Positions 5,458 to 39,734 of a stretch of 60,879 bases of DNA are shown here, piece by piece; within the stretch, counting starts at the first letter, position 1, and every line of letters starts with the position of its first letter. This DNA is from Gracilariopsis chorda (lineage: Eukaryota; Rhodophyta; Florideophyceae; Gracilariales; Gracilariaceae), in the NCBI GenBank assembly GCA_003194525.1, contig NBIV01000377.1:1-60879 (forward strand), in the 5' to 3' direction. Made by a program: the position numbers and the translations under genes. A model generated the notes under the pieces. The model saw nothing but the letters and a program-made list of their open reading frames with translations. It was not told where the DNA came from and made no database searches.

Positions 5458-5472
5458 AGGTCGGGAGACCAG
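5458..5472 (-). other. Probable primer-binding site of the Ty3-type element
   Basis: Two bases inside the inferred LTR end, the minus strand reads TGGTCTCCCGACC. It begins with TGG, as a tRNA primer-binding site should, to pair with the CCA end of a tRNA. I could not assign the tRNA. Its position fixes the inner edge of the LTR. Confidence 0.55.
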
Positions 5473-5474
5473 TT

Positions 5475-6011
5475 GTGAGGTAGTGCGCGCGAGCGCCCTA
5501 CTCAGGTGAAATGTCCGGGAACGGTGACGGTGGGTATTGCGCAACGGGGTGTAAGGCCGTGCGGCTACCGAGTCGGAAAAGGCGGAACGGTGAAGGTGCG
5601 GAGTAGCGCAGGGCCCTCTGCTGTGAGGCCGAGTACGGAGACACGCGTAGCCGAAACAGGTACCACGCGCCTAAACAGAGAGCCGATGTAACGGTAGATA
5701 TCCGATACGGCGCAGCCCGTACAGGACTTTGACGAGCTGCGTCTCCTACTACGACTTAGGATCCGTGCCAAGGAACTAAGACGAAGAACCTAGTAGGAAG
5801 CACCTTGAGTTTACTTGGTGAGGGCGTCGGCCGCGCTGGCGGAGAATAAATATCCAGCTGGGCCGCACCACACGTGTCTGGCTTACCGCTCGCGGGGCAC
5901 TAGCTGCCACCGGCACAAACGTCTGCTACTACAACTACTACACTAGCCGAATAGCGGAAGGGCTCCTACAGCCAGAATACCACTCCAATAAACGGTTTTC
6001 ACTTCCTTACA
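5475..6011 (-). repeat. 5' long terminal repeat of the Ty3-type element
   Basis: On the minus strand this 537-bp block begins TGTAAGGAAG and ends CTACCTCACA, the TG...CA ends expected of an LTR. The probable primer-binding site follows at once and gag begins about 100 bp later. Just outside the outer end the second element's protease frame stops abruptly, so the outer border is also an insertion border. The partner LTR lies beyond the window, so identity of the two LTRs cannot be tested. The last 5 bp of the interrupted gene (6012-6016, AGAAG on the minus strand) are the expected target-duplication copy. Confidence 0.72.
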
Positions 6012-13427: not shown

Positions 13428-14142
13428 TGCACTGCGCCAGTGCAGCACAATGCACAGAGCATATATACTGCACTGGCACAGTGCAAAAATCATCTCGCTT
13501 GCTGACCCTAACCACTTTTTTTTCACCTCCCATTTCAGGCTGCCCAATAGTGCAGTGTCGTAACCTTTTGCTACTTTGGGCACTGTTTGCTGGCCTGCGA
13601 CCTAGGCAAGGCCGAGCTCGTGTGCAGGTCGCCACAAGAGTAAACCACTAAGTACCACGGATCTGGGAAAGGTCAGGTGCTGCTCTGTGGTATACTGGTC
13701 GTTTGACTGCGATCAGGAAGTCTGTGGGTTTCCTGGACTTAATACCAGCTTGCTGTTCAGGGTCCGGGGCGGCGGCCGTGTCGTACCTCTTTGGGCCAGA
13801 AAGCACACTTCGGTGTGTGAGTAAAGGCAGACCAATCCTTACAACCGGACGCGGGTTAAACATCAAACGGCTTGAAAACCGGCTGGGCACACTCCGCCCG
13901 TCATAATCCAACAGGAGTGTGTCGAGAGTCCTTGTGCTGCGCACGACTGCATCGGGTAAGTATAAGCCTTGCAGCAATTTTTTTTAATTGCTGCATGCGA
14001 CTAGGCCCTGTGGGTGCAAAGAAACAAACTGCAACCATTTTTTCACACTCAACTTTTTGTTATATTGGAAATTATTCTGGAACTCTGTCAAACTTTTTAC
14101 CGGTTTAAAAATTTTGAATTGTTTTTTTTTTGGTAAATTGAA
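13428..14142 (+). promoter_or_regulatory. Helitron copy 1 head: twin palindromes, TATA box and conserved 0.7-kb leader
   Basis: Two 17-bp palindromes, TGCACTG-CGC-CAGTGCA (13428-13444) and TGCACTG-GCA-CAGTGCA (13469-13485), flank a TATA-like GCATATATAC (13459-13468). About 650 bp of leader follow before the ATG at 14143. The leader is conserved in copies 2 and 4 and shortened in copy 3. The palindromes could be Rep-binding or nicking signals, a transcription-factor site, or both. That is inference. Confidence 0.6.
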
Positions 14143-17100: not shown

Positions 17101-19784
17101 ATTGTACCGGAGACGTACATTGAAGAAGGCACGAATCGCGTGATCTACCGCGGAAGAAGGCAACCGGACCTCAAGATAGTGCCGTACAACCCAAATCTGA
17201 GCAAGAAGTACCGCTCTCATATCAACGTAGAACGCACGCAAGGAGGGGGCGCGGTGGCTTATCTGATGAAGTACGCGTTCAAGCAGCCCAAAGTTCAGGA
17301 GGTGGTGCTCAGTGTGAGTGGTGCTAATGAGACAGGCACACACAACGAGCAGCAACAAGAGCCGCAGGTGTAGAAAGACATTCATGCATACATGCGAGCG
17401 CGTGTGGGGGCAGCCATCAACGCAGCTTGGAGGATTTTAGAGTTTCGACATGTTCACATCGTACCAAAAGTAGAGTGACTGGCCATTCAATTGGAAGGAG
17501 AGCGAACGTTCCTGTTCAGAGGTCCAAATCATATCCATTCCGCATTGCCACCGTCTACGTTGGAGAGATACTTTGCAAGGCCCGAAGCATATGCAAACCT
17601 CGACTACCTTTCGTACTTTGAAAAAGTTCGATTGTATCGCACGCTTCCAGCCCGAGTGCTTAACCAATACGACGGAGACAGCACTTCGGTGCCCACGAAC
17701 GACTGCGATCCGCCTATGTACGTGGTAGAGCGCACGGAAGACGAGCAGTGTGTCGCAAGGATCAGAGGTGTTTCACCCTCGGACATTGAGCTATTTGCTC
17801 TGCGCTTGCTGATCATGAATCACTGCTTGGGCTCTTATGAAGACGCAAGAACTTTCAATGAACAGCAGCATGACCCTTATCGGGAAACCGCAATTGCAAT
17901 CGGACTGCTCGCGGACGGATCCGAGTTTGGTATTGCATTTAAAGAAGCAGTGCAGATCTACAGCACGCCCTCCGAGCTACGACGTCTGATTGTCACACTA
18001 TACCAACAAGGCGCAGACCCAGAAAAAATGACCGTCGAAAACTAGAGGCGCTTTGTAGCGACATACATACAGGAGATGAGCAGCAACGAAAGCAAGAAAT
18101 GTATCGACGTGTGTTGGAGATCTCAAACCGGGACGGAGGACGACTGCTTCGCGATCACATCTTCTACTCCCAACACCTACAGAAGGATCATGCAGCATTG
18201 AATGAGGCGAATCGAGCTACAACAACTCGAGACGCGCGAGTGTTGCGAAGTTCTTCAGCTTTGCAGTCAAGGTACGCCACCTTAAAACCTCGCCAAAGGC
18301 AAGTCATTAAAACCGTCATTGCCGCATTGCAACAACGACAGGCGCTGCAGGAGCGAACAAGCACTCCTGGAAACGTGTCATTTGTGCAAGGATCCGCAGG
18401 AACCGGAAAGACATACGTGCTCAACCTCCTTCGTGATATCGCAGAGTCAGAAGGAATGCTCGCCGAAATGACTGCTACAACAGGCATTGCAGCTTCGTTA
18501 TACGAAGGTCGCCGCACTTTACATAGCCTGCTCGGAATGGATGTAGCTGATAGGGACAGCACAAGCAGCACTACAGCCAATTTGTCAAAGTACGGTCCCT
18601 GATCTCAACGTGCAGAACGTCTACGGGAAATACAACTGCTCGTCTTGGATGAGGCGTCCATGCTCTCAAGAAAGCTTTTCGAACTCATGGATGCATTGCT
18701 CAAAGATCTTCACTGCTGTGGAGTGGAAAACCCGCCTCCGTTTGGGGGCTTGACCATCGTTCTATCTGGCGACTACTCCCAGCTGCTTCCAGTGGTGCCG
18801 CAGGTGTACATGGAGGCCGAGCAAAGTGGAAATGTGAGACGAGTATACACAAACATTCTCAACGAACTGCTGTGGAAGAGTGATCTGTGGACGTTGTGCT
18901 CGGTTCAAGTGCTGTATCTCACCGAACAAGTACGCCAAGCCGATGATCCCGCATTTGCGTCACTGTTACGTTCCATTGCAAGCAACGCAATATCCAAAAA
19001 CGCTCCAATACCACTCAGATCTACCCGTGGCGTGCAAACAACTTATCAATTCCTGTGGACGTGGCTCACAACACGACGCAAAGGGGATGTGGATCTCAGC
19101 AAAATGGTCATTGCGTCCAAAAATGAGTTCGTCGATGAACACAATGCAGCAGCGCTGGATCTGTTTCCTGGTGAAGGCTTCACTCTTCCGTCAGCTACGA
19201 CGGTACAACCTGACCGTATACAGAATTCAGAGCCCGACCTCACGAATACCTTTGTTCCCGAGTTTGCATATCAGTATGCACGCACTGTAGTACCACCTCA
19301 TAACTTGGATTTCACGATTGGTGTGCCAGTTATGGTCATTCGGAACATGCTGCATCCCGCTGTAGTCAATGGGAAGCTGTTCGTAGTCGTGCATGTCGAT
19401 CAGTTTACGATGCAGGTTGCTCGATTCGACGAGAACGGACAGGTACTGGAACAACAGCTCCTGCATCGTATCGACTTCGAGTTTTCTTTCGCAGACATTC
19501 GCATGATTCGAAGGCAGTGCCCCATTCGTCTCGCGTTTGCAGATACCGTTCACAAAGGACAGGGAAAGATATTGGATGGCTTGGTTCTGGATGTGCGATC
19601 TGACTTCTTCTGCACCGGTTAGTTTTATGCATTGTCGCGCGTTCGAAGTAACAACCATGTGCTACTCCTGCATGACCCGCAGCTTACACCTGCGAATGCG
19701 CACACAATTCATCCCATGTCTGTGGCCATCATCAACCCAGTTTTGCCTGAAGCCATTCAGTCCTGCATCCCTCCACAACCGTAA
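14143..19784 (+). pseudogene. Helitron Rep-PIF1 helicase (RepHel), copy 1, broken
   Basis: One frame runs from the ATG at 14143 to about 18045 and a second to the TAA at 19782. Domains in order: a Gly-Ala-Arg-Asn repeat (SGGARAN, 14160-14510) ending GGARPGAGRPRR; Pro-rich acidic repeats around MEVEEGEI (about 14800-15075); a cysteine cluster CGRCGEHAHTLSFCP and CKYC...CC (about 15265-15405); the Rep start PSLFITITMNIWRED (16636 on); the HUH-type core NVPHHHMLLWL (16891-16925); a Rep-like tyrosine helix VAYLMKYAFK (about 17257-17290); Walker A GSAGTGKT (18390-18413); Walker B LLVLDEASML (about 18630-18665); IVLSGDYSQLLPVV; and a C-terminal IRLAFADTVHKGQGK. Rep nicks and rejoins single strands for rolling-circle transposition, and the helicase unwinds. 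Stops lie at 14854, near 14903 and 14950, 16783, 17371, 17478, 18043, 18600 and 19621, plus a frameshift near 18050, so it is inactive. The intact form would be near 1,880 residues. Confidence 0.93.
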
Positions 19785-20158: not shown

Positions 20159-22944
20159 AAGCTCAGAGCTCATTTGCTGCTGCTGCATCTTGACTGCCGC
20201 TGCTGCTCAGTGGCTTGCACTACAGTATCAGTGGCTGGCACTGCAGTCATTTTTACAGTGCCGGCCAATTACATTCCACTGTACTCTCCACGCACTACTG
20301 CAGTGACCACCAATCACAATCGCATGGGCGCTCAATTATTACTCTATTCTACTATATTCATTCTCGGCGCTGCAGCCCTCCTGGGTCTGCAGGTCGTTTG
20401 CGAGCGTTAGCGAGCATAAGTGGCCTGCAGATACCCCAAAGTCACCCCCTATTCAGCGGTGCGCAGCGCCGCCCGCGGCCAAAGGCCGCTTCTACTCGTC
20501 TCAACACCTCCCCGTACTATAATGATTTACACATGTATGATCGGGATGTTGTTGATTGAAGGGAGGCGTTGCGCCAAAAAATCCCCTTGCACGCCCCCTT
20601 CAGCGCATGCAATTTTCACGCCTCCTTGCCAGGGAACAAATGCAGCAGCAGCAGCAACAGCAGCAGCAAATCTCAAAGCTTATTGGCTGCTCCTGCATGT
20701 TGACTGCCGCTGCTGCTCAATGGCTGGCAATACGACATTGCTACCCATCCCACTGCACAGTGGATGGCACTGCAGTCATTTTGGCAGGGCCGGCCAATTA
20801 CAATGCACTGTACTCTCCATGTACAACTGGAGTGCCTGCCGATCACTATCGCGCGGGCTCCCAATTGCTTCTCTATTCTCTATTCACTCTCGGCGCTGCG
20901 GCTCTCATGCGTTTGCAGGTCTTTTGCGACTGTTAGCAAGCATAAGCGGCCTGCAGATTCCCCAAAGTCACCCCTATTCAGCGACGCGTAGCGCCGCCCA
21001 CGGCTGAGGGCCGCTTCTACTTGTCTCTTCATTATAACCATTTACAAGCGTATGAGCACATACATATTGATTGAACGGAGGCATTGCACCAATAAACATG
21101 GCCGCACGCCCTCTTCAGCGCATGCATAAACCTCTTTTGGCGCAACGCCTCCCTGCCATTCAAAACATTGACCAACAGCAGCAGCAGCAAAGCTCAGAGC
21201 TCATTGGCTGCTGATGCATGTTGACTGCCACTGCTGCTCAGTGGCTGGCACTACAACACTGCTACCCATCCCACTGCGCATTCGTTGGCACTGCAGTCAT
21301 TTTTGTAGTGCCGGTCAATTACATTCCACTGTACTCTCTATGCACAACTGCAGTGCCCGCCAATCACAATCGCGTTGGCGCTCCATTGCTATTTTATTCT
21401 ATGTTCACTCTCGACGCCGTAGCATTCATGGGTCTGCAGGTCAGTTCCGAGTATTAGCGAGCACAAGCGGCCTGCATATCCCCAAAAGACACCCCTATTC
21501 AGCGGCGCGCAGCGCCGCCCACATCCGTAAGCCCTCTCTACTTTTCTCAACACCACCTCGTACTATAATGATTTACACATGTATCAGGGGGGTGTTGTTG
21601 ATTGACGGGAGGCGTTGCGCCAAAAAATCTAATTGCACGCCCCCTCCAGCACATGTAATTTTCACGCCTCCCCGCCAATTAAAAACTTCAGCAGCAGCAG
21701 CAGCAGCAAAGTTCAGAGCTCACTGGCTGCTGCTGCATGTTGACTGCCGCAGCTGCTGGGTGGGTGGTACTGCAGCAGTGTCAGCCACACCGCTGCACAG
21801 TAGCTGGAACTGCAGGTATTTTGGCAGTGCCAGCCAATTACACTCTACTGTACTCTATATACACAACTGCAGTGCCAGCCAATCACCAACGCGCAAGCAC
21901 TCAACTGCAACTCTATTCCATATTCACCCTCAGCGCCGCAGCCCTAATTGGTTTGCAGGCCGTTTGCGAGTGATAGCGAGAGAAAAAGGCCTGCAGATCC
22001 CCCAACGTCACCACTTTTCAGCGCCACGCAGCGCCGCTCGCAGCCGAAGGCCGCTTTTTCCTGTCTCTCCACTATAATGATTTACACGTCTTTCGAGCGT
22101 GTTGTTGATTGATGGGAGGCGTTTCCAAAACAAATCCCTTTGCAAACACCCTTCAGTGCAGCTAAAAAAGGCGTTTCGTGCAACACCTCCCTTCCAATCA
22201 AATACTTTAGCAGCAGCAGCACCACCACCAGCAGTTCCAGCAGCAACAGCAGCACCAGCAGCACCAGCAAAGCTCAAGGCTTATTGGCTGCTGCTGTATG
22301 TTGACTGCCACTGATGCTCAGTGGCTGGCACTACAACATTGCTACCCATCCCACTGCACAATGGTTGGCACTGCAGTCATTTTGGCAGTGCCGGCCAATT
22401 AAAATCCACTGTACTGCCCATGCACTACTGCAGTGCCTGCCAATCACAATCGCGCGGGCTCTCAATTGCTACTCTATTCTATATTCACTCTCGGCGCCGC
22501 CACCCTCATGCGTCTGCTGGTCGTCTGCGAGCGTTAGCGAGCAAGAGCAGCCTGCATATACCCCAAAGTCACCCCTATTCAGCGGCGTGCAGCGTCGTCC
22601 GCGGCCGAACGCCGCTTCTACTTGTCTCAACACTCCCATTCTTAATTATTTGCTCATGTATGAGAGGGGTGTTGTTGACTGACGGGAGGCGTGGCGCCAC
22701 AAATTCGCTTTGCACGCCCCCGTTTGCGCATGCAAAACGCCCATTTGGCGCAAAGCCTCTCTACCATTTAAAAAAATTTAGCAGCAGCAGCAGCAGCAAA
22801 GCGTGCAGTTCATTAGCTGCTGCTGCTGCATGTTGACTGTGCAATGGCTGCTGAATGGCTTGCAATACAATCAAATTATAGTGTCAGCCACTCAGCAGCA
22901 CAACCCTGGCTGTACATTCCAACACGTGGCAAGTTGCACTGCGT
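19785..22944 (+). repeat. Helitron copy 1 tail: six tandem units of about 0.36-0.56 kb
   Basis: Unit starts (the GCGCAGCGCCGCC-GCGGCCGAAGGCCGC block) lie near 19894, 20457, 20983, 21500, 22022 and 22584. Units carry the same hairpin motifs as the tail of copy 0, diverged from each other. The last unit ends with CAGCAG, an ACACGTGGCAA motif and the half-palindrome TTGCACTGCGT at 22944. Predicted ORFs in this block, including poly-Gln, poly-Leu and poly-Ala stretches, come from the CAG/CTG runs and are not genes. Confidence 0.85.
20082..20159 (+). repeat. (CAG)n microsatellite with CAA interruptions
   Basis: About 26 triplets, mostly CAG with three CAA interruptions, inside the first tail unit of copy 1. 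The same site in other units holds only about three to eight CAG triplets, so this one has expanded. A CTG-rich stretch follows about 20 bp later, so a long hairpin is possible. Confidence 0.95.
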
Positions 22945-22964
22945 CGGTGTTCTCGGAATGCTAG
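22945..22964 (+). repeat. Left terminal inverted repeat of the 8.1-kb element
   Basis: CGGTGTTCTCGGAATGCTAG. It pairs with the right end at 31038-31057 (17 of 20 matches counting the outer CGGTG/CAGTG). Confidence 0.7.
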
Positions 22965-23178
22965 ATAGAGGTGCTACATCGCAACACTCTTAAGCAAAAG
23001 CTCAAAAATACTACGAAAATGATAGATTCTGCTAGTTTCTGGCGCTTGCCAAGTTAAAATTTTTTTTTTGGGAATTCACACTTCCATATCTTACAGAACC
23101 TTGCCTCACCTGCACTGTGCATCGCTAGTTTCAAGTTTGGAGCAAGTTCATTCTCCATTCAAAGCTAGATACAGATCT

Positions 23179-23217
23179 CAAAATGGCGCTGGCCACGCAG
23201 CGGCCAGCGCCATTTTG
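23179..23217. repeat. Perfect 16-bp inverted repeat with 7-base loop
   Basis: CAAAATGGCGCTGGCC at 23179-23194 is the exact reverse complement of 23202-23217, with loop ACGCAGC. It lies about 230 bp inside the left end of the 8.1-kb element, upstream of its first gene, in sequence unlike the Helitron hairpins. A structural or regulatory role is possible but unproven. Confidence 0.9.
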
Positions 23218-23239
23218 GAGCACGCAACCCAAACTAACA

Positions 23240-23750
23240 TGTTTATTTCCATCTTTTGAATTTCAAACTTCCTACTGCCCTAGTTTGACGTCCAACTCAT
23301 CCTGAGGAACTCATCTGGGCAGCTCTCTCCCTTCTCATACACCCGACGCACCGCGCACCAGATTCAAGTACCACCCATTCAATTATCCTTCTCCCCTTCC
23401 AAAATTCTCTCCGTAGTCCTAACAGTCTCAAGTACACTCCTAAACATCACCATTTTTCCTCTCCCTCTCCCCTCATTCCATGCCTCCTGTTCAACCGACT
23501 CCAACCCTCCCATCCTTCTTCGTCCTTCTCCTTCAACCTCTTCCTCACAACACCTGGACCTCCAGGAGTAACCGGAGACCCTCTCTCGACAGCACCTTCC
23601 ACCCCATCTTCCCCTCCACCTCCATACATCTTCTTAAATTCATGCCTGGCGCTCCATCGTAATGGCGATGGGGCACCATGACACCTCGGACCACGGACCT
23701 CGACCCAAAACGAAGAGAAACATAATCTGAATGAAACGGGTTCATTCAAG
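23240..23750 (+). promoter_or_regulatory. Pyrimidine-rich leader upstream of the 405-residue ORF
   Basis: About 400 bp on the plus strand are dominated by C and T (for example CTCTCCCTCTCCCCTC near 23460) and end close to the ATG at 23751. Similar C/T-rich leaders precede the ATGs at 46470 and 59709, so this may be the usual 5' leader or promoter form in this genome. No clear TATA box was found. The short ORFs on both strands here follow the base composition and are not supported. Confidence 0.4.
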
Positions 23751-24968
23751 ATGCATGGAACCGGAGAAGAGCTTGTTGATGCTTATCTTGCAGTTCGTGA
23801 TGACTACGCAGCAACAAGGCAAAATGTGGATGAGCGGAGAAGTTTGAAGCACACCGACGTTGTGGAGTTCGCGGTACAAAGTCGCAACGTTCATGACTCT
23901 GCCAAGAAAAAGTTTCTCACTCTCATCGGACCGGATTACATCTCGTATTCGGACTCCGAGCTCCGTAACATGTCTCTCAGAGGCCCTCCACGTCAACTCT
24001 ATCTTATGGCAAGAGTGTTGAACGTAAAGGACCGTGAAGAAGACAGGCGTGTAAGGGACTTTTGGAAGGTTTATTATAAAAGGGAAGGTCTTAAAGGAAT
24101 TCGCCGTAACTTGTTGCTATATGTCTTTTGCAAGTCCCGTGTTCTGGAAGCAACCAAGAAATCTTCCGCTTTTCATACGGATCCTTGCATCGACTTTGAA
24201 ATGGTCATTGGGTTGTCTATGGTGCAACAGATTGCCGTGGATAAGAAAGGAAGTTGTAGGAAGAGGAAAAGGGGCATGGCAGCTAAGAAGTTCTCGAAAG
24301 TGAGTTTGTCGGACATGACCCAGAGTCAGAGAGTCGGATATGGTGTGCAGCTGGTGACCAGGGCTTGGGATTGTTTCGCCCAATTCTTCGAGTTTCCCAA
24401 CGTTGAGGTTATGAACTTGCCTTACATTCGACTGGACTATATCAGTGTAGTCTTCACCGATATCGCACAACGCTCCATGGGCTTCCAACACAAATATTGT
24501 TCCAAACAGTTTGTGGAGAAGAAGAACGTCACCACCGTACAAGAAAACGTTACCAAATGGGCATGGAATCTGCCAGACCCAGCGGATACAGCGCTTCGCT
24601 TTTGTGCCAAAGAATACCTTGGTGACCTTTCTAATGTGGTGGTACAAGAGCACCTGTTCGACATCTCTGCTCCCAGCAAATGGGATGCCCTCAAATGGTT
24701 CATCATCATGAGAAAGAGACTTTTCCCTCTGCGGTTTGAGAACTTTAGTGAATCTCTTGTCACTACGGTTCAAGGGGCCATAAAGCCTCTGAAGCTCATT
24801 GCATTGCATGGAAGCAATTTCAAACTACATCAAGCTGTGAAACCAGAGCCCGCAGAAGACGTTGACATCATTATGGAGCCGGTACAAACTGGTACGGGTG
24901 GTGGTGGGAACGAACGCGCTGAGCGTGTGGAAGGTGGTGATCAGGGTGAGTTGGAAGAATTGGAATAG
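23751..24968 (+). CDS. Unrecognised 405-residue protein, N-terminal part of the methyltransferase-SET frame
   Basis: This is an intact ORF from ATG to TAG. I recognise no family. Residues 1-120 are charged and helical (MHGTGEELVDAYLAVRDDYA). A basic patch RKRKRGMAAKK lies at about 170-180. The middle has paired aromatic and helical segments (GVQLVTRAWDCFAQFFEF), and the last 40 residues are acidic with GTGGGG. The stop is followed in the same frame, after two codons, by the ATG of the methyltransferase segment, so the two were probably one protein, with the TAG being a nonsense change or a readthrough point. It is the first gene inside the TIR element and is well preserved compared with its neighbours. 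It could be the element's transposase or a DNA-binding/target-recognition region, but no DDE, HUH or tyrosine-recombinase signature is visible. Confidence 0.7.
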   Translation: MHGTGEELVDAYLAVRDDYAATRQNVDERRSLKHTDVVEFAVQSRNVHDSAKKKFLTLIGPDYISYSDSELRNMSLRGPPRQLYLMARVLNVKDREEDRRVRDFWKVYYKREGLKGIRRNLLLYVFCKSRVLEATKKSSAFHTDPCIDFEMVIGLSMVQQIAVDKKGSCRKRKRGMAAKKFSKVSLSDMTQSQRVGYGVQLVTRAWDCFAQFFEFPNVEVMNLPYIRLDYISVVFTDIAQRSMGFQHKYCSKQFVEKKNVTTVQENVTKWAWNLPDPADTALRFCAKEYLGDLSNVVVQEHLFDISAPSKWDALKWFIIMRKRLFPLRFENFSESLVTTVQGAIKPLKLIALHGSNFKLHQAVKPEPAEDVDIIMEPVQTGTGGGGNERAERVEGGDQGELEELE

Positions 24969-24974
24969 ATAGAG

Positions 24975-26904
24975 ATGGTAGAGGATGCGGAACGTGGTAC
25001 TGCGGAACGTGGTACTGCACCAAAGGCCACTGAAGGAGTGCAGACAACAGCTTTGTCGCAGAACTTATCGTATGATGCCGAAGGCACGGGGATTCGTGCA
25101 CCACCGTACCCGACGACTTTGGATGATGTGATAGCTTACAAGTATTGTGAGAAGGAGATGTCCCGCAACTTCCGTCTCCACAACTGCAAGTTCGAAAATC
25201 TCATCGAAGTTGACGACAACAAGGCTGGCGAAAGCGAGGTATCTATTGAAGGAAGGGTACTGTTCCTGCTTTCCGATCCGCCATATGGAACTCGTTCTGA
25301 GCGTCGTTTGGAGAACAGCGAACACGATATTCTGACCGAGAAGGGCATGAGCAGGTCAGCGAGGAGGTCTTCAAAGCTTCTACGTCCTGGTGGACATATT
25401 TTACAGTTCTGCTCATGGGATCAGGTACCGTTGTGGCGGGATGTGCTAAAGAACGTTACCTACATGGATGACTCTGATACGAAGCGTTACTGCTTTTTCT
25501 TCGACGAACAGCCCCTTCATTTCGTACGGTCTTTAGGTAATAAGACGAGTAACGTTGGGAGATGAAGTTGCCAGTTGCACCAGACGACAGAATACGCTGT
25601 ACATGCTGTTCGTTCTGGAGTTCCTTATGCACAACAGCACTGGATGGTCAACTATGAGAACTTCAAGTATGTTGCTTCACGATACCCAGCGTATCATGCA
25701 ATCATGGATCAGGTGCCGCCGATGTCAAATAGTGAGATGCTCATGTGGTCTGTGAAAAACGCGGATGGGAAGTATACCAGGAAGAGGATGCGACCAGAAC
25801 AGAAGTGTAGGGCACTGTTGAAAGAGCTGATTTGCAGGTTCAGTCAGCCAGGAGACCTCGTGGTAGACATGTTTGCCGGAACGTTCTCGACAGCGATGGC
25901 GTGCATGGAACTGCCCAAGCATCGGGCGTTTGTGGGGTGTGAACCGGACAAAGCTTGTTTTGAATACGCCAGGCATGCCGCTATTGTTCGCTTTGCTTCC
26001 ATAATAAGGGAAAGACACACAGATATTGAGAAGAGCCAGGAGCTTCGAAAGATGGCCCATTGTGTTTCGTCTGCATTCCCAATGGGAAGAAGCAGGCACA
26101 CCGTGTTATGGAGGGCTGTCGACGGATTTCCACCGTACCAAATTCTTCCCCCACACCTTGCCGACTTTCTCTCCACTTTGTGGCAAAGTGAAATTCTAGG
26201 GAAGTTGGGAAGGAAGAAAGCTATGGATGGATGGCCGAGGGAGCTGCAGGGAAGAATGAATCTGGAGAACATGAAGTCTCTATTGGCAATGGAGGCTGTG
26301 CAATATTATTTGCGAGTGGGCAAGTCTACTACTCGTCACGAAATGGCTGGTGTTGGAGTGTTTGCAACTCGTCGAATTGCTGCAGGCGAGGTAGTGTGCT
26401 ATTTCTACGGGACGTTGGTTTATCATGGCCTTTTGAATCGGAAAGAAGTGCACAAGACCTACGGGGAGGGAGTCATGGGTGTGACGAAGGATCGCTTCCA
26501 GAAGTATGCGGTGGAGATAGAAGTCTACGGTCAACAGTTCCAATCACTTCCGCATCGAAAACAGCTGACGAATGGGCATGGAAAACAAGCAAAACCCCAT
26601 TTTATGGGTGCTTCCTGCCCCTTTTTGTATTGCGGGGTATATAAACGATCCAACGTACGTGGAAGGAGATAAACATTTAGATGCCATGGTGGATGGCCTC
26701 CTGAAAAAAAGGGAGGGTAATGTGCGAATGAAACGGACAGCGGGAGTGGGACGAACACCAGGGGGAATAACGGACTACAAACTTATTAAGATGGAGGCGA
26801 AAGCCGACATAGAGCAAGGAGAGGAACTCTTCGCCTGATACGGTGATGTTTATGACTGGCAAACCCATTTGAATGTGGAGGATGGAACGATATTCATTGA
26901 TTAG
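24975..26904 (+). pseudogene. Beta-class DNA amino-methyltransferase fused to a SET domain, broken
   Basis: The frame is the same as that of the preceding ORF. Catalytic motif IV LLSDPPYG (DPPY at 25275-25286) comes first, then LLRPGGHILQFCSW. After an in-frame TGA (25563) come a target-recognition-like stretch, KCRALLKELICRFSQPGDLV and the AdoMet motif VVDMFAGTFST (FAGT at 25872-25883). DPPY before FxG is the beta-class order (N6-adenine or N4-cytosine, PF01555 type). Then GVGVFATRRIAAGEVVCYFY (about 26350-26410) opens a SET domain, closed, after a one-base frameshift near 26620, by GYINDPTY (26635 on) and GEELFA-TGA-YGDVYDW (about 26820-26865). SET proteins methylate protein lysines, often histones. 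Damage is light: two TGA codons and one frameshift in about 1.9 kb. Base specificity cannot be read from DPPY alone. The usual NHS motif of SET is replaced by YIND. Confidence 0.83.
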
Positions 26905-27189
26905 TTTGTTGTTATAAACCTTTCTCCACAGCTTGGCTAAAGGATGTCGTTTATTATGTGAACGGATGTCTAGTCATAACTTAGGACAATATTACATTTC
27001 ATTAGGGATAGAAGATACAAAACGATATAGATGTGACACAGAAACGTCCATTTTCGGCACCACCGAGGATTGTATTTTCAAGATTTCACAAAAAGCAAAG
27101 ATTTTTGTGCACATCGGGTGGCGAGATTTTCTCAGAAAACACACGGCGTGCACCAACCCAGAGCGTCACCAGCCACTTGTGCAAGAGTT

Positions 27190-29812
27190 TTGACTCCAAG
27201 AATCGCGCCGAAGGGAAAGAAGCGAGACCCAGGAAAGGGTAGTGCGGCGAGTGTGGCTAAGACGCGGCGAAAGGCTATTGAGGAGCGAACTGCGAGTGGA
27301 ACGAAAGCGAAATCATGTGTTCCGAGGAGCGGATTATTGGGGAGGAGATCAGGAGAAGGTGCTTTGAAGATATAGGGAGGAGGTGGGGCATAGAACGTCG
27401 GATCCGAGCGCCCGACAAGTGAGCGCACGACGAGTGAGAATTTGAGGGCTGATGCCCATGCGAATATAGCAGGCGGGAGAGATTCGGTTCGGAGACAGCG
27501 GTCTATGCCTGGGTCAGGTGATAGAGTGGAGGGTAGAAAAGGGTTGGTTGTTCGGAGAACGGAAGAGGTAACAGATCAGGGAGGCTTGAAAGGAAATGCG
27601 CCGGTTGAAGACCGAAATAAGGATGAAGATATGCCCGGAAGGAAACAAATAGAAGAGCCAGGTGCGCTGAAGAGAGGTGGGCCCCAAGTGGAAACCGAGA
27701 TATAGGAGAGGTAAATGTCTCTTTGGTACACAGTGATGGGGACGAAGAGGATCACATTGTGAAGGAGAGATGGACTAGAGATATGATAAACGAAGGAGTG
27801 GGACGCCGGTCTAATTTAAAGGAAACGCGAGAAGTGGAAGAAGTGGTCAGAGCGACGGATGGAATACAGGAAGCATCGAAAAGCGGAGACCGTACAAGCA
27901 CACTCGTGCGGACGCGAAAGGTGCAAATGACTGAAAACTTGGAAAGTGGTCGAGGAAGCAGAACGCTGCAGACTCTGGAAGGCATACGAGAGAGAAAATG
28001 AATTGTTCATTGGTCGCCAAGTAAACCCGCTGACGAGCGAAGCCTGCCTGTCAATGTTTTGGGAGATGCAGGAAATGATGACATCGGTGCGATTTCTTGA
28101 TCTTCGTTACTTGAGAGGGTCAATATATTGAGGGCAGAACTTGGACAGATCAAAGGGGACCACTGCAGCCTAAAGATGTCGCTGAAGCTGACGCAAGAGG
28201 AACTGAAGAGGATGAGAGAAGAGATGAGCGAGAATAATATATTGATAGATAGCTTACGGGAATGGATGAAGGTGGGAAGAGGGGAGAGAAAGGGATCTGA
28301 AGGTAAAAATGGCTTAAGAGGGCGTAGGAAGTATGTAGTTGATGTGCAAGAGAATTATTATGGGTTTGCCAGGGTATTATATGATAGGTTGTTGTACTAT
28401 GCGAAGGTGGAGGTATCGGAGTTTTGATTTACTTCGGAGGCTGTGGAAAGAAACTGGAAGAATCGATGCAGAATATTGGGGAAGGGAAGAGATTGGAGTG
28501 TGTTTGTCGTCGGAGGAAAGGAAATTGTGCCTCGATGTCCATTTGAGATCGCGTCTGAGATGAGGTCGTACACGCCTTCGTCGGGAGGAGGAAGTAATGA
28601 CCAATTGAAGTACTTGGTTGGCGTTGAGATTAAGGGGGAGAGATGGCAGTCGATTAATGATGCGGGTAGGAAGGATCAATGCATGCGGGAGGTTGTTGCG
28701 GACAGGTGTTTGAGGCAACGTATGAAGCAGAATTTGAGTGATGTGATTGGGATTCGGAAGCGTGCGGCACCGGACAAAATGCTTTCGTTGCTTGGATATG
28801 ACTTGGTCGCCAGACGTGTGAGACCACGAGAGGGGACGGGGCTAGACATTGAGTTGAAGAAGCAGTTAGAGGAAGCAAAGACGAAGTTCAAGGGGGATGG
28901 GGAGGCGAAGAGCGGTAGATTATGTTCTTGGAGGATGAGAACAATCGAAGATCTTACGTATTCTGAATTTCAGGTTGCTGATCGGCTGAGGGAGTTTAGT
29001 GAAGAGGACATGTACTTCAAGAACGGAGCTGCGGGGGAAGTGTTGGAAGAATTCATGGGATTTGAGGTGGGGACGGAAAGGGAGGGAAAGATGGAGTAAG
29101 TTGATGGGACAGTGGTGCATTTGGCTCGTTTGGATGCGTGGATCGGATTTGTTTTGACAGCAATGGACACAGACATGGGGCGTGGAGGAAGAAGGCAGTT
29201 GTTATTTTCTAGTTGTACGGGGAGTATCTTCGGCTTGCGGTGGAGAAAATACTTGGGGTGGCGTGGGAGAGGGAGAGAGAACTACATCATGAAGAATTGG
29301 AGAATGAAGGTTGCGATGACGGTGACCCGCGTTTTATAGCTAGGAATGGGAGTAGAGAAGCGAAGGTAGTGCTGTGGATACCTTCGAACCGGAAGAATGC
29401 CGAGGCTGCACGCTGAATGAAGGCCATTCTTGTTTCGCGTGGGATGTTGGAGGAAGAATGTGGGATGAAGTATCCGTCGCCGGGGGAGGAAGAGGGGGAG
29501 AAGAAAGTTGGGAGGTATCCGAGTAGGGTGAGGCTTTGGGAGACACACTTTCAGTGGAATGCGTCGGAGAGGTTAAGGAGGGTGATGTGAAGGGGTTAGG
29601 AGGTGATGGAGGAGCCTTTGAGTGAGGTTACAAACGTATCGGAGTATAACTGGACGAGACCGACGAATGATTCCATACCGGTTGTGTCAGGGGTGTGCCA
29701 GACGATATCATTGATGTGGCACTGCGTGATGGCCTGTTTAAAGACAGGAATGACTTTGTTTCCAAAGGCTGCGGCCATAGGATGGGCGAAGGCGGGGGTT
29801 GAAGAAGAGTAA
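27190..29812 (+). pseudogene. Large decayed gene of unknown function in the TIR element
   Basis: Open segments follow one another with several frame changes: 27190-27705 (basic, Arg/Lys/Glu-rich, with internal stops near 27373), 27723-28001, 28128-28427 (a coiled-coil-like LKLTQEELKRMREEMSENNI), 28443-29099 (218 residues, including KMLSLLGYDLVARRVRPREG), 29112-29339 and, in another frame, 29213-29812 with internal stops (including VKLWETHFQW-like RVRLWETHFQW and NVSEYNWTRPTNDSIPVVSG). Together they would encode about 850 residues. Amino-acid composition is consistent from segment to segment and the opposite strand offers no better reading, which supports a real decayed gene. I recognise no domain. 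It ends 12 bp from the stop of the convergent minus-strand ORF. Confidence 0.45.
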
Positions 29813-29823
29813 GGTGAAGATTG

Positions 29824-30717
29824 TTACACGCGTTGTAAGAAGATGTTGTTGAAGTGTGCGAGATCGAGTTGTTGCTTCAGGACTTCTATGGCGCCTTTTT
29901 GGAAGAGAGTTGCGGAGGAGTTGTGCTCGTCGGAGATTGTGAGAGGGAGAAAACTGGTGGAGTTGATACGTCCCTTGACGAGGTGTTCTTGGAGTGCGAG
30001 GCACTGCTTTGCGGAGGAGATGGATTTCTGGAAGGATGAATTGGAGGAGTCTGGGTGCTTGAGAAGGGAGATGAGTTCGTCGTCTTTGCGTGTGCTGAGG
30101 AAGGAAGCAATGGAGGAGATGCAGAGGACGAGTTGCTCGAGATGGGGGTTGTTGAGGAGAGGGGAGGGGGATTGGGACGACGTATGGGGAGGTGGGTTTG
30201 AGGAGGAGACTGAACAGAGGGCGTGACTTGCCATGTGGTGTGCGTCTTGTGTTTGGAGGGAAAGGGAGGCCTGTTGGATGTGATAGGGTTCATGTTCGGC
30301 GAGGGGGACGCTGTCTGAGGGGCAGTGTGAGGGAGTGCGAGGAGAGGTTTGGAACGGATTTTCGTCGCTTGGTCCTTGGAGGGAACTGTACGGGAGCGTT
30401 GGCGGAGGAGGAAGGGCGTTTGTGGGGGGTGAGTCGATGAGGGCACCTGCGTTGGTGATTCTGGAGAGAGAACGCGGTGCGGCCATAGAAGGTGCAACGG
30501 GATGGCAACAGGGTATCATTGCGGTGGAAGGAGAACGGAGAACGGGATGCTTGGAAACAGAGAAGGGAGGGTGGTGGCGGAGTGGGATATCGGGGAGCGT
30601 AATATTATGGCACACGTAGATGAGGTGGTGCACGTGACGCAGAGGGTCTTTTCGTAGGGCGTGGGGTAGACTATGCGATGCAGGGAGCAGGTCGGGCAAC
30701 GGGTGGTAGAAAGCCAA
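29824..30717 (-). CDS. Unrecognised 297-residue ORF, convergent with the decayed gene
   Basis: Open without stops, rich in Pro, Ser and His in the first 190 residues and helical at the end (LEQLVLCISSIASFLSTRKD, then KGAIEVLKQQLDLAHFNNIF). The open frame begins at a TTG. The first ATG is about 65 residues in (MIPCCHPV), so the start is uncertain. The C-terminal 100 residues look more protein-like than the low-complexity front. No family recognised. It lies tail-to-tail with the 27190-29812 gene, 12 bp apart, inside the right end of the TIR element. It could be real or a chance opening opposite G-rich sequence. Confidence 0.4.
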   Translation of the reverse strand: MAFYHPLPDLLPASHSLPHALRKDPLRHVHHLIYVCHNITLPDIPLRHHPPFSVSKHPVLRSPSTAMIPCCHPVAPSMAAPRSLSRITNAGALIDSPPTNALPPPPTLPYSSLQGPSDENPFQTSPRTPSHCPSDSVPLAEHEPYHIQQASLSLQTQDAHHMASHALCSVSSSNPPPHTSSQSPSPLLNNPHLEQLVLCISSIASFLSTRKDDELISLLKHPDSSNSSFQKSISSAKQCLALQEHLVKGRINSTSFLPLTISDEHNSSATLFQKGAIEVLKQQLDLAHFNNIFLQRV

Positions 30718-30741
30718 AGCTATTTGGTTATGTAAACGATA

Positions 30742-30777
30742 TGTATCTATTCTATCTATCTAATATCTATTCTATTT
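30742..30777 (+). repeat. TCTA/ATCT microsatellite
   Basis: Imperfect repeats of TCTA (TATCTATTCTATCTATC and so on), between the minus-strand ORF and the right end of the TIR element. The rest of 30778-31037 shows no gene. Confidence 0.8.
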
Positions 30778-31037
30778 TGCTATTTGAAGGGGCACTCGCT
30801 CAGGACCAGTAAGATTTGGATTCCACGTTCACCTGAGAGGGTAGGTATTAGTGGAGTCTGGCGCTAGTTTTACCTCCAAAGAAACTGGGAAATGTGTAGT
30901 ACACTGCTAGTCTTTTGTCCCAAGCAAACTAACTCTGTGCTATGTATGGAATTAATTTGAGAAATTGGATTCATTCAAACTTGGGTTTGAAGAGTCGTTA
31001 TTCGTTCATTTTAATTTTTTGAATTTTGGATGCCAAA

Positions 31038-31057
31038 CTAGCATAACGAGAACACTG
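31038..31057 (-). repeat. Right terminal inverted repeat of the 8.1-kb element
   Basis: Read on the minus strand, CAGTGTTCTCGTTATGCTAG. It matches the left end at 22945-22964 except at three positions. Inward, the two ends diverge quickly. Confidence 0.7.
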
Positions 31058-31796
31058 AAGTGCGCCTGTGCAGTGTATACTGAAGTTTCATTGCAGACAT
31101 GCCTGCGACAGACGTATATAATGCACTGGCGCAGTGCCAAATGCACCTCTCTTGCTGACCCTAACCACTGTTTTGCATCCCATTTCAGGCTTGGCCTATA
31201 ACGCATTGTCGTAACCTTTTGCAACTTTGGCCACTGTTTTCTGGCCTGGGACCTAGGCAAGGCCGAGCTGGTGTGCAGGTCGCCACAAGGGTAACCCACT
31301 AAGTACCACAGATCTGGGAAAGGTCAGGTAGTGCTCTGTGGTATACTGGTCATTTGACTGCGATCAGGAAGTCTGAGGGTTTCCCGGACCTAGTACCAGT
31401 TTGCTGTGCACGGTCCGGGGTGGCCGCGGTGTCATACCTCTTGGGGCCGGAAAGCACACTTTTGTGTGTGAGTAAAGGCAGACCAATCCTTACAACCAGA
31501 CGCGGGCTCAACATCAAAGGGCTTAAAAACCGGCTGGGCACATTCCGCAGGTGATAATCCAACAGGAGTGTGTCGAGAGTGCCTGTGCTGCGCACGACTG
31601 CATCGGGTAAATATAAGTCCTGCAGCTATTTTTTCTTAATTGCTCATGCGACTAGGCCCGCTGGGTGCAATACAACAAACTGCAACCAGTTTTTCAATTT
31701 CAACTTTGTGTTTTATTCGGAATTATTCTGGAACTCTGGCTGATTTGTTAACGGTTTAAAAACATAGAATTTTTTTCTTTTCTTTGGTAAATTTAA
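31058..31796 (+). promoter_or_regulatory. Helitron copy 2 head and leader
   Basis: A TATA-like GTATATAA at 31114-31121 is followed by the palindrome TGCACTG-GCG-CAGTGCC (31122-31138) and a 0.65-kb leader closely similar to that of copy 1. The first palindrome is altered by the neighbouring insertion. Confidence 0.55.
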
Positions 31797-34700: not shown

Positions 34701-37225
34701 GATGCAGTGCGCGTTTAAGCAGCCCAAAGCTTAGGAGGTGGTGCTCAATGTGAGTGGTGCTAATGAGACAGGCACACACAACCAGCAGCATTAAGAGCCA
34801 CAGGCGGAGAAAGACATTCGTGCAGACATGCGAGCGCGTGTGGTGGGCGCCGTCAACGCAGCTTGGAGAATTTTCGAGTTTCGACATGCTCAAATCGTAC
34901 CACAAGTAGAGCGACTGACCATTCAATTGGAAGGAGAGCGAACGTTTCTGCTCAGAGGTCCAAATCAAATCCATTCCGCATCACTGCCGTCTACGTCGGA
35001 GAGATACTTTGCAAGGCCCGAAGCATATGCGAACCTCGACTACCTTTCGTACTTTGAAAAAGTTCGAATGTATGGCACGCTTCCAGCCCGCGTGCCTAAC
35101 TAATACGACGGAGACAGCAATCAGGTGCCCACAGACGACCGCGATCCGCCCATGTACGTCGTAGAGCGCATGGACGACGAGCAGTGCGTCGCAAGTATCA
35201 GAGATATTTCACCGTCGGACATTAAGCTCTTTGTTCTGCGCTTGCTGCTCATGAATCACGGCTTGAGCTCTTATGAAGACGCAAGGACTTTGAACGGACA
35301 GCAGTATGGAACTTATCGTGAAAATGCGATTGTAAGCGGACTGCTCGCTGACGGATCCGAGTTTGATATTGCATTTCCAGAAGCATTGCATATCTACAAA
35401 ACACCCTCGGAGCTACGAAATCTGGTTGTCATAGTATACCAACAAGGCGCAGAACCAGAGAAAATGGCCGTCGAAAACTAAGAGGCGCTTTGTAGCGACA
35501 TGCATACTGGAGATGAGCAGCAACGAAAGCAAGAAATGTATCAACATGTCGTTGAGACCTCAGACAGGCACGGAGGACGATTGCTTCGCGATCACAGCTT
35601 CTTCTCCCAGCCTACAGCAGGATGGTACAGCATTGACTGAGGCGAATCGAGCTACAACAACTCGAGACGCGCGAGTGGTGCGAAATTCGTCAACTTTGCA
35701 GTCAAGGTAGGCCACCTTAAAAACTCGCCAAAGAAAAGTCAATGACACCGTCATTGCCGCATTGCTACAACTACAAGCGCTGCAGGAGCGAACAAGCACT
35801 CCTGGAAACATTTTATTTGTACAAGGATCCGCAGGAACCGGAAAGACATACATGCTCAACTTCCTTCGTGATATCGCTGAGTCGGAAGGAATGCTCGCCG
35901 AAATGACTGCTACAACAGGCATTGCGGCTTCGTTATACGAACGTGGCCGCACTTTACATAGCCTGCTCGGACTCGGTGTAGCTGATAGGGACAGCACAAA
36001 CAGCACTAAAGCCACTTTTTCAAAGTACGGTTCCCGATCTCAACGTCCAGAACTGCTACGGGAAATACAACTGCTCGTCTTGGATGAGGCGTCCATGCTC
36101 TCAAGAAAGCTTTTCGAACTCATGGATGCATTGCTCAAAGATCTTCACTGCTGTGGAGTGGAAAACCCGCCTCCGATGAGGGGCTTGACCATCGTTCTAT
36201 CCGGCGACTACTGCCCGTTGCTTCCAGTGGTGCCGCAGGTGTACATGGAGGCCGAGTTAAGTGGAAATGTGGGACAAGTGTACACAAAAATTCTCAAAGA
36301 ATTGCCGTGGAAGAGTGATCTGTGGACATTGTGCTCGGTTCAAGTGCTGTATCTCACCGAACAAGTATGCCAAGCCGATGATCCGGCATTCGCGTCACAG
36401 TTACGTTCCATTGCACGCAATATAATATCCAACAACGCTCCACTACCACTCAGATCTACCCATGGCGTGCAAACAACTTATCAACTCTTGTGGAAGTGGC
36501 TCACAACACGATGCAAAGAGGATGTGGATCTCACCAAAATGCTTATTGCGTCCAAAAATGAGTTCGTCGATGAACAAAATGCAGCAGAGCTGGATCTGTT
36601 TCCTGGTGGAGGCTTCACTCTTCCGTCAGCTACGACGGTACAACCTGACCATGTACAGAACTCAGAGCCCGACGTCATCAATACGTTTGTTCCCCAGTTT
36701 GCATATCAGTATGCACCTACTGGATTACCACCTCATAACTTGGATTTTAAGATTGGTGTGCCAGTTATGGTCATTCCGAACGTGCTGCATCCCGCTGTGG
36801 TCAACGGAACGCTGTTCCTAGTCGTGCGTGTCGATCAGTTTACGATGCCGGTGGCTCGATCCGACAAGAACGGACAGGTACTGGAACGACAGCTCCTGCA
36901 TCCTATCGACTTCGAGTTTTCTTTCGAAGACATTCGCATAATTCGAAGGCAGTTCCCCATTCGTCTCGCGTTTGCAGCTCCTGTTTACAAAGGACAGGGA
37001 AAGACATTGGAAGGCTTAGTTGTGGAAGTGCGATGATCCAACTTCCTTGGCACCGGTCAGCTGTATGTTGCATTGTCGCGCATTCGAAGGAACGACCATG
37101 TGCTGCTCCTGCATGACCCGCAGCTTACATTCGCGAATGCGCACACAAATCATTCCATGCCTGTGCCCATGGCCAACCCAGTGCTGCTTGAATCCAATCA
37201 GTTCTGCACCCCTCCACAACCATAA
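31797..37225 (+). pseudogene. Helitron Rep-PIF1 helicase (RepHel), copy 2, broken
   Basis: Starts at ATG 31797 with a shortened Gly-Ala-Arg repeat containing a TGA at about 31858, then GAGRPRRVAAPPAPDE, acidic MEVEEGEI repeats (to about 32515), the cysteine cluster CGRCGEHAHTLSSCP (about 32705), the Rep start PSLFITITMNIWRED (34078 on), the HUH-type core NVPHHHMLVWLE (about 34328-34363), Walker A GSAGTGKT (35825-35848), Walker B LLVLDEASML and a C-terminal IRLAFAAPVYKGQGKTLEGL. Roughly ten stops or frameshifts interrupt it, including a TGA shared with copy 1 after PALP (near 32337). The Helitron tyrosine-helix region is damaged (QCAFKQPKA followed by a stop). The helicase part is open for 424 residues (35762-37036), the best preserved helicase in the window. 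Confidence 0.92.
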
Positions 37226-39510
37226 TCATATTTCTTGCGTTCTTCATTCACTGAATTAAACGACTTGCTTTTCTGCTTTTGCTCTCTCCACCCTTTTTAT
37301 CTTCTCACCGCGGTTTATCACTCCTCCGCGTGGCGCGCAGCGCCGCCGGCGGCCGAAGGTCGCTTTCTCTTGTCTCTCCATTATAATGATTTACACGTCT
37401 TTTTGAGCATGTTGTTGATTGTTGCGAGGCGTTTCCAAAAAAAACCCCCTTGCAAGCGCCCTTCAGTGCGGCTAAAATAGGCTTTTTGCGCAAGGCTTCC
37501 CTTCCAATCAAATAATTCAGCAGAAGCAGCAAAGCTCAAAGCATATTGGTTGCTGCTGCATGTTGACTGCCACTGCTGCTCAGTGGCTGGCACTACAGCA
37601 TTGCTACCCATCCCACTGCGCAGTGGTTGGCACTGCAGTCAATTCGGCAGTGCCAGCCAATTACAATCCACTGTACTGTCCATGCACAACTGCAGCCGGC
37701 TGATCACAATCGCGCGGGCGTTCAAATGCTACTCTATTCTATATTAACTCTCGGCGCCGCGTCCCTCATGCGTCTGCAGGTCGTTTGCGAGCGTTAGCGA
37801 GCAAAGTCGGCCTGCAGATCCCCCAAAGTCACCCCTATTCAGCGGCGCGCAGCGCCGCCCGCAGCCGAAGGCCACTTTTACTTGTCTCAACACCACCACT
37901 CTTAATGATTTTCTCATGTATGAGGGGGGTGTTGTTGACTGACGAGAGGCTTTGAACCACAAATTCGCTTTGCACGCCCCCGCTTGCGCATGCAAAACGC
38001 ACATTTGGCGCAACGCCTTCCTACTATATAAAAGATTGAGCAGGAGCAGCAGCAGCAGAACTTGCTGCTCACTGGCTGGCACTCCCATATTGACTGCAGT
38101 GCCAGCCAGTTACGGAAAGCAACGTGTCACACTTTTTCATCATTAGCTGGCACTGCAGTCAATTTAGGCACCTAAACATAAACCCCTACGGCTTCAGATA
38201 CTCTAAACGCCGCAGCGTTCCGGGGGTCTACGAGCGCTATTGCGAGCGAAAGCGAGCAAAGTGCTCGCAGAGCCTCCGAACGCTACTAAATAGGCAAAGT
38301 TAAAAAAAAACCGTGGCGCGCAGCGCCGCCCACGGCCGAAGGCTGTTTCCACTTGTCTCAACACCACACCGTACTATAATGATTTATACATGTATAAAGG
38401 GGGTGTTGTTGATTGACAAGAGGCGTTGTGCCAAAAAATCCCCTTGCACGCCCCCTTCAGTGCATGCAATTTTCACGCCTTCCTGCCAATCAAAACACTC
38501 AGCAACAGCAGCAGCACCACCAACACCACCAAAGTTGAGAGCCCATTGGCTGCTGCTGCATGCTAACGGCCGCAGCTGCCAAGTGGCTGGCACTGCAGCA
38601 GTGCCAGCCGCACCCCTGCACAGTGGATAGAACTGCAGTTATTTTGGTGATGCCAACCAATTACAGTCTACTGTACTCTATATACACAACTGCAGTGCCA
38701 GCCAATCACCAACGCGCGAAGGCTCAACTGCAACTCTATTCCATATCCACTCTGGGCGCCGCAGCCGTCATTGGTTTGCAGGCCATTTCCCAGCGATAGC
38801 GGGCAAAATCGGCATGCGAATCCCTCACAATTACCCCACCTTAGCGGCGCGCAGCGCCGCCCGCGGCCGAAGGCCACTTCTACTTGTCTCTCCATTCTAT
38901 AGACTTACAAGCGTATGAGCGTCTACATGTTGACTGAACGAAGGCGTTGTGCCAATAATCACGCCCGCAAGCCCTCTTCAGCGCATGCATAAACCTCTTT
39001 TGGCGCAACGCCTCCCGCAACGCCAATCAAAATCCGGCGGGCGCTCAATTGCTCCTCTATTCTATATTCACTGTCAGTGCCGCGGCCCTCATTGGTCTGC
39101 AGGTCGTTTGAAAGCGTTAGCGAGCAAACCCGGCCTGCAGATTCCCAAAGTCACCCCTATTCAGCGGGCCACAGCGTCGCCTGCGGCCGAAGGCCGCTTC
39201 CACTTGTCTCAACACCCCACTCTTAATGATTACCTCATGTACGAAGGGGGTGTTGTTGACTGACGGGAGACATTCCGCCCCAAATTCGCTTTGCACGGCC
39301 CCGTTTGCGCATGCAAAACACCCATTTGGCGCAACGCCTCCCTACCATTTAAAACATTCAGCAGCAGCAGCAGCAAAGCGTTCAGTTAATTTGCTGCTGC
39401 TGCTGCATGTTGACTGTGCAATGGCTGCTGAATAGCTCGCAATACAATCAAATTGTGGTGCCAGCCTCTCAGCAGCAACACCAGGCTGTTCATTCCGACA
39501 CGTGGCAAAT
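37226..39510 (+). repeat. Helitron copy 2 tail: five tandem units of about 0.32-0.53 kb
   Basis: Unit starts near 37334, 37842, 38314, 38845 and 39168. The fourth unit is shortened to about 320 bp. Motifs are as in the other tails. Between units 2 and 3 lies an ACGAGCGCTATTGCGAGCGAAAGCGAGC variant segment that also occurs near 11915 and 41910, so unit subtypes are shared between copies. Confidence 0.85.
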
Positions 39511-39734
39511 TGCACTGCGTCAGTGCAGTGTATACTGAAGTTTCATTGCAGACATGCCTCCAACAGACGTATATACTGCACTGGCGCAGTGCTAAATGCA
39601 TCTCATGAACCTAACCACTGTTTTGTATCCCATTCAGGCTTGGCCGATAACGCGGTGTCCTATCCTTTTTCTACTGTGTGCACTGGTGCTGGCCTGGGAC
39701 CTGGGCAAGGCCGCGCTCGTGTGCAGGTCTCCTC

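Follow-up and report, generated by a model that had tools for sequence, protein, structure and literature searches.

Contig NBIV01000377.1 (C377) of the red alga Gracilariopsis chorda, taken here over its full 60,879 nucleotides as the window of our analysis, carries an element inserted in Helitron sequence. The element contains the remnant of a small gene (gene E), a gene joining a DNA amino-methyltransferase to a SET domain (MT-SET), a decayed gene (gene D) and, on the minus strand, the N-terminal part of a Plavaka transposase (Table 1). The last three were already visible in a preliminary description of the locus as a methyltransferase-SET frame, which Pfam and comparison with relatives confirm, a decayed gene, and a convergent open reading frame. 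We regard the window copy as very probably a decayed, transposase-deleted member of a multicopy Plavaka-type family, whose intact relatives encode the transposase together with an MT-SET that would likely protect them from silencing.

The inverted ends, GTGTTCTCG-NN-ATGCTAG, are present at 22947–22964 (+) and 31038–31055 (−). In the G. chorda assembly (91.3 Mb, 1081 contigs), this 18-base pattern occurs exactly in at least 100 places; with up to three mismatches it performed no better genome-wide than its reversed control (997 and 1274 places, respectively). Longer, asymmetric patterns including the subterminal bases in which the two ends differ, again with up to three mismatches, matched 121 left and 59 right ends, compared to none for the reversed controls, showing that the element is one of many copies of a family whose left and right ends can be told apart. 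A genome search for further copies with the same ends, which the preliminary description had set as its refuting test, thus returned many, and its proposal of an element with terminal inverted repeats is sustained by ends seen across the family.

To the borders, the family gave a different answer than the window. We compared flanks in 35 of 38 element rows (37 end pairs, matched by eye, and the window), leaving out one each on C10, C314 and C7; the set does not include at least two other pairs (C211, C314:19057). Directly outside the left GTGTTCTCG, CGTCG is exact in 22 of the 35 copies and has one change in 9 more; directly outside the right CGAGAACAC, CGACG is exact in 25 and has one change in 7 more, with both exact in 15. 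The inverted repeat therefore starts five bases outside GTGTTCTCG, and in this form (CGTCGGTGTTCTCG..ATGCTAG) it begins 3 bases beyond the borders first read at each end, which moves these from 22945–31057 to 22942–31060. The two bases outside CGTCG/CGACG vary among copies, yet within a copy they are identical on both sides in 25 of 35 cases (expectation with swapped partners 0.113, p ~1e-16), or in 24 of 34 independent copies, since C402 and C460 look like a single insertion. Two copies of a young subfamily, described below, that were read at both ends have matching AT/AT duplications.

The preliminary description had instead suggested an 8-bp target duplication, which would fit a novel, hAT- or KDZ-like superfamily with an unrecognizable transposase. 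In the window alone there is indeed an 8-bp near-duplication (5 of 8 positions) in register with the empty site, and since the 2-bp and 8-bp readings both give a net insertion of 8121 bp, the window alone could not decide between them. Among the 35 copies, however, no full 8-bp match was found at any of the nine offsets from 0 to 8, and the relatives encode a Plavaka transposase; we consider a novel superfamily refuted for practical purposes, and hAT and KDZ were rejected on the same 8-bp count. CACTA/EnSpm, with CAC..GTG ends and 3-bp duplications, was also rejected, the ends here being CGTCG..CGACG and none of the 35 copies matching in all three bases at offset 5.

That the element was inserted into Helitron sequence, as first proposed, is borne out by its flanks: when joined, they align to an uninterrupted Helitron copy elsewhere in the window with 88.7% identity over 238 columns and no gap at the joint. 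This stretch is the empty site in another Helitron copy. Profile searches of the surroundings found Helitron_like_N in the frame at 14959–16782 and PIF1 helicase in the frames at 18645–19619 and 35762–37033.

Ten further copies read whole range from 4.7 to 17.6 kb and are 86–93% identical to the window copy over aligned columns (81.5–93.5% over all pairs). The copy on C85 holds a Gypsy-like retroelement, with a 1423-residue frame that by eye reads as a retrotransposon polyprotein. In 12 elements the motif GCTAG occurs 2–6 times per terminal 250 bp (a few of these counts being of overlapping sites), compared to 0–0.11 times per 250 bp of interior. Such clustering near the ends is what would be expected if these were subterminal binding sites like those of CACTA-like transposases.

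The right halves of C1 and C29, both old copies, contain minus-strand frames that match the Plavaka domain PF18759 with E-values of 8.8e-19 and 5.2e-18, and in the young copies a 911- and a 1160-residue frame match it with 1.9e-21 and 2.7e-21. At E ≤ 0.001 the genome contains 114 such matches, of which 110 exceed the curated cut-off; 14 control genomes contain none. Phycobilisome linker proteins gave seven matches in the G. chorda genome (best 9.4e-41) and, among the 14 control genomes, matches only in Synechococcus; linker genes and transposon ends co-occur on contigs such as C12, C60 and C144. Together with the Helitrons and the genome size of about 91 Mb, the linkers are in keeping with a red algal host. 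Alignment with a Psilocybe Plavaka protein places the motifs LYSDK at 349, CADIP at 466, CPRC at 488, LHNFHLG at 585 and FEHAH at 789. By this alignment the window transposase, which extends only to about residue 432, keeps the first catalytic aspartate (~352) and loses the second (~468), the CPRC pair, the histidine pair and the glutamate (~790). The earlier statement that no transposase is recognizable therefore holds for the window copy, which has lost most of the catalytic core to a deletion, but not for its relatives, which encode Plavaka. The histidines are spaced H-x2-H in the G. chorda copies, compared to H(3-4)H as written for Plavaka in PMC12730594.

The loss corresponds to an alignment gap at columns 12524–14886 that is common to seven of ten large old copies (C3, C134, C151, C273, C286, C85 and the window). 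C77, the 4.7-kb copy with a different deletion, was left out of this count and of the mutation counts. Since the missing stretch is kept in C1, C29 and the young copies, the gap represents a deletion. Perfect 2-bp duplications flank four of the seven carriers (C3, C151, C273 and the window), and the best explanation for the same deletion at different sites is that the deleted version, the window copy included, was likely mobilized in trans. This agrees with the earlier view of the element as non-autonomous. A second deletion, of the gene A region, is common to the window and C85.

MT-SET consists of about 510 residues of no assigned type, followed by PF01555, with a DPPYGT motif before the FAGT motif, and then by SET. 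In P0001, an uninterrupted relative of 1060 residues from a public collection, PF01555 matches with 3.3e-18, and the SET stretch given alone scores 25.4 bits, above the Pfam cut-off of 22.4. The whole protein of the young copy C53 exceeds the cut-off as well (SET 23.3 bits; PF01555 3.6e-18). By sequence, the closest solved relatives of the methyltransferase part are DpnA and CcrM, and those of the SET part are, weakly, KMT2 and KMT5A (best E 0.014). In the bacterial comparison of PMC8885841, a DPPY motif suggests adenine-N6 as the target, with the warning given there that the domain by itself does not reveal specificity.

At least 45 MT-SET matches are present in the genome (43 of 401 candidates scored; two genes listed as two pieces each). 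Five are full-length at 94% identity, and four of these, which belong to a young subfamily, are stop-free; one at 93% covers residues 1–672 and is stop-free, and one at 87% has stops. A further 23 matches at 64–72%, the window copy among them, all have stops. The remaining 15 are truncated young copies at 95–96% identity, which keep residues 420–1014 or 420–1060 and of which 14 are stop-free; they sit on C187, C790, C14, C27, C12, C34, C281 and other contigs. The truncated copies may have kept the enzymatic part without the N-terminal domain.

The young subfamily is marked by the variant end GATAAGGG, found in 29 of the 100 left ends listed, out of a total of 121. Four of its copies are 99.3–99.8% identical over 1.57–1.71 kb, from which we infer recent activity. 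In the young copy C53 (~11.85 kb, AT on both sides), the frames of the transposase (1160 residues), MT-SET (1060 from its methionine), gene D (821) and gene E (276) are all intact. The young copy L102 (7.1 kb, AT duplications) has an intact transposase frame; its minus-strand frame at 1543–2793 encodes 417 residues with several hydrophobic stretches and no family match above cut-off, and a related piece is found in C3.

Between young and old copies, the ratio of nonsynonymous to synonymous substitutions (dN/dS) was 0.18–0.29 for the transposase at a synonymous divergence (dS) of 0.54–0.72; at dS ~1, MT-SET gave 0.18–0.21 and gene D 0.17. Among old copies it was 0.94 for the transposase, and comparisons of MT-SET and gene D gave 0.86 and 1.03. 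Ratios near 0.2 between subfamilies and of about 0.9–1.0 among old copies indicate constraint in the jumping lineages and free decay once a copy has inserted. In old copies, transitions at CpG reach 27.6 per 1000, compared to 14.6–18.2 in other cytosine contexts, which hints mildly at cytosine methylation in the past without proving it.

These results bear on whether MT-SET and gene D are merely pieces of host genes that the element captured by chance and that do nothing for it. L102, a young copy read whole, has neither of them, and both are of unassigned function, as might be expected of such pieces. Yet the gene order is the same in C53 and the old copies, and MT-SET has at least 45 matches, four full-length stop-free copies and a record of purifying selection between subfamilies, so that chance cargo is unlikely; we judge this origin quite improbable.

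Gene D has no Pfam family, and a search of the PDB gave only a weak coiled-coil match (E 0.27). Another minus-strand gene, gene A (frames of 855 and 1062 residues), is present in the longest old copies and absent from C53. It has no Pfam match, and a homologue search with words drawn from its first 500 residues, ahead of its tail, was empty. In C151 this tail shows, by eye, the motif HTD..GDVFHAG..R (HxD..H..R), in which C1 has Q for the first histidine. The order HxD..H..R is the pattern of Fe(II)/2-oxoglutarate dioxygenases. The tail had no match in Pfam or the PDB, and we take its dioxygenase-like character as a lead only. A ParB-like look of the first part of gene A, noticed by eye, found no support in Pfam and is not claimed.

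Copies of 11–18 kb with several cargo genes could also recall a virus or a Polinton-like element as the source of the large copies. Pfam searches of selected frames found no capsid, polymerase or integrase family, neither MT-SET nor the gene A tail had a close relative in the viral contigs searched, and the size of the 17.6-kb copy is due, by our reading, to an inserted Gypsy-like retroelement; we give such an origin virtually no credence.

For the Plavaka-type family, we propose that the full-length transposase of sister copies would bind the ends and subterminal repeats, excise the element and reinsert it at a 2-bp stagger by cut-and-paste, and that it would also move deleted copies such as that of the window in trans. 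MT-SET would methylate the DNA of the element, possibly at adenine-N6 as suggested by DPPY, and nearby histones; these marks may brand the element's chromatin as active or as self and so allow escape from silencing. A more far-reaching idea, tentative and to our minds distinctly doubtful, is that the element carries its own chromatin kit, in which MT-SET would write both DNA amino-methyl and histone methyl marks and gene A of the longest copies would add a paired oxidative eraser, giving the element an epigenetic identity of its own, as if a self-mark of the bacterial kind had been re-created in a cut-and-paste transposon of a eukaryote. Because the genome contains intact and truncated young copies side by side with decayed old ones, the question of self-marking is directly testable by maps of N6-methyladenine, N4-methylcytosine and histone marks.

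It is also possible, though rather unlikely in our view, that MT-SET does not serve the element's own escape but targets the host or rival elements, for instance by silencing competitors or by a mark that blocks re-insertion. A DNA-methyltransferase/SET pair is a writer, and bdelloid transposons are marked by a PF01555 amino-methyltransferase that, together with SETDB1 variants preferring the marked DNA, has been proposed to maintain their silencing (PMC8885841).

Several observations weigh against a Plavaka-type family protected by MT-SET. By analogy, the silencing of transposons by the bdelloid enzyme, of the same domain family, would be the opposite of the role we propose (PMC8885841). L102 lacks MT-SET, which is thus not needed in every copy, and the truncated copies described above lack its N-terminal part. 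Scored as a whole protein, P0001 reaches 20.5 bits for SET, below the cut-off of 22.4, and structure predictions were unusable for both MT-SET and gene A (mean predicted local distance difference test scores of 28 and 30). Within the old family, a test of codon positions found no sign of constraint, which is expected after insertion and lends no support itself. Ten of the 35 copies lack a perfect 2-bp duplication, and the termini CGTCG..CGACG fit neither Plavaka subgroup exactly, these having TGT..ACA (A) or CATCA..TGATG (B) in the fungal elements of PMC12730594. We therefore file the family provisionally as Plavaka-type by its transposase domain, and in neither subgroup A nor subgroup B.

Table 1. 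Features of the window copy and its empty site (window coordinates).
Feature	Position	Strand	Evidence
Whole element, very probably a decayed non-autonomous Plavaka-type transposon, 8119 bp	22942..31060	+	family-wide ends, 2-bp duplications, empty site
Target duplication TG, left	22940..22941	.	flank comparison
Target duplication TG, right	31061..31062	.	flank comparison
Left terminal inverted repeat CGTCGGTGTTCTCGGAATGCTAG, 23 bp	22942..22964	+	end patterns, flank reading
Right terminal inverted repeat	31038..31060	-	outer five bases decayed to TGAAG; CGACG exact in 25/35 copies
Left subterminal region, 4 GCTAG motifs	22942..23191	+	motif count; interior 0.08 per 250 bp in window copy
Right subterminal region, 3 GCTAG motifs	30811..31060	-	motif count
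Gene E remnant (276-residue frame in young copies)	23468..23650	-	tblastn
Scar of gene A region deletion	23635..23636	.	alignment gap, columns 897-6248, same in C85
MT-SET gene, interrupted by a TAG, a TGA and, close to its 3' end, a frame change	23736..26901	+	69% identical to P0001, residues 19-972
MT-SET tail, in another frame	26587-26901	+	past frame change
DNA amino-methyltransferase domain, approximate limits, permuted order	25250..25975	+	PF01555 match 25587-25970 in open piece scanned
DPPYGT motif, upstream of PF01555 match	25275-25292	+	read from sequence
SET domain, first part, open frame (remainder past frame change)	26349..26504	+	E 0.0071, below cut-off in broken copy
Decayed gene D, no assigned family (intact 821-residue frame in young copy)	28101..29270	+	comparison with young copy
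Transposase deletion scar, common to 7/10 old copies	29391..29392	.	alignment gap
Plavaka transposase, N-terminal part (young-copy residues 14-432)	29401..30636	-	comparison with young copy
Empty site in another Helitron copy	39399..39630	+	joined-flank alignment

Elsewhere in the window, an intact-looking frame at 51511–52800 (+) has a PIF/Harbinger-type DDE_Tnp_4 transposase domain (3e-29). The stretches 345–1364 (−) and 3012–5375 (−) comprise retroelement RNase H domains, Gypsy-like by reading, and a large frame that has no family match and is possibly gag-like.

A limited literature search found no published Plavaka element in red algae and no methyltransferase-SET fusion in a transposon. 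The nearest counterparts are the fungal PlavakaA and PlavakaB elements (Kojima 2025, PMC12730594), as described there: they share the PF18759-type transposase and a short target duplication, of 2 bp in A and 2 to 3 bp in B, the 2-bp form being that found in 25 of our 35 copies, and some members carry an epigenetic enzyme, a TET/JBP dioxygenase. The G. chorda family differs in its red algal host, its CGTCG..CGACG ends, its fusion of a DNA amino-methyltransferase to SET and its 114 transposase matches in one genome. Plavaka transposases outside fungi have also been reported in the giant repeats of Amoebidium, likewise in large gene-rich units; these form tandem clusters that include tyrosine recombinase genes and reach 50 kb, and the passages of PMC11244446 that describe them mention no MT-SET. 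In the green alga Auxenochlorella, EnSpm-Plavaka is another case outside fungi, only named in the relevant part of PMC12633428, where no MT-SET is mentioned.

Mobile elements with epigenetic enzymes are known from other groups. HarbingerS and oomycete MuDR are DNA transposons with a captured SET histone methyltransferase; they belong to other superfamilies, and where PMC12730594 cites them it mentions no DNA methyltransferase joined to SET. DNA methyltransferases are carried by DIRS elements, with a Dam-like adenine methyltransferase, and by dinoflagellate and charophyte retrotransposons, with DNA methyltransferases of the DNMT type; these are retrotransposons with Dam-like or C5 enzymes, and no SET fusion is mentioned in their account in PMC5890265. 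As far as these sources describe them, the known transposons thus carry one kind of enzyme each (SET, TET/JBP, Dam-like or DNMT), whereas MT-SET joins two in one gene.

The closest parallel to MT-SET itself is the bdelloid N4CMT. It too is a eukaryotic PF01555 methyltransferase of bacterial type with permuted order, fused to a chromatin domain, and its partners are SET histone methyltransferases (PMC8885841). That paper stated in 2022 that the bdelloid enzyme has no homologs in eukaryotes; MT-SET is a eukaryotic PF01555 methyltransferase besides it. N4CMT is a host gene that silences transposons, with SPPY, a chromodomain and its SET partner on a separate protein, whereas MT-SET is transposon-borne, has DPPY and unites both writers in one protein. 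From the description in PMC8885841, the bdelloid host uses similar DNA and SET writers, as separate proteins, against transposons; in G. chorda, the transposon holds both.

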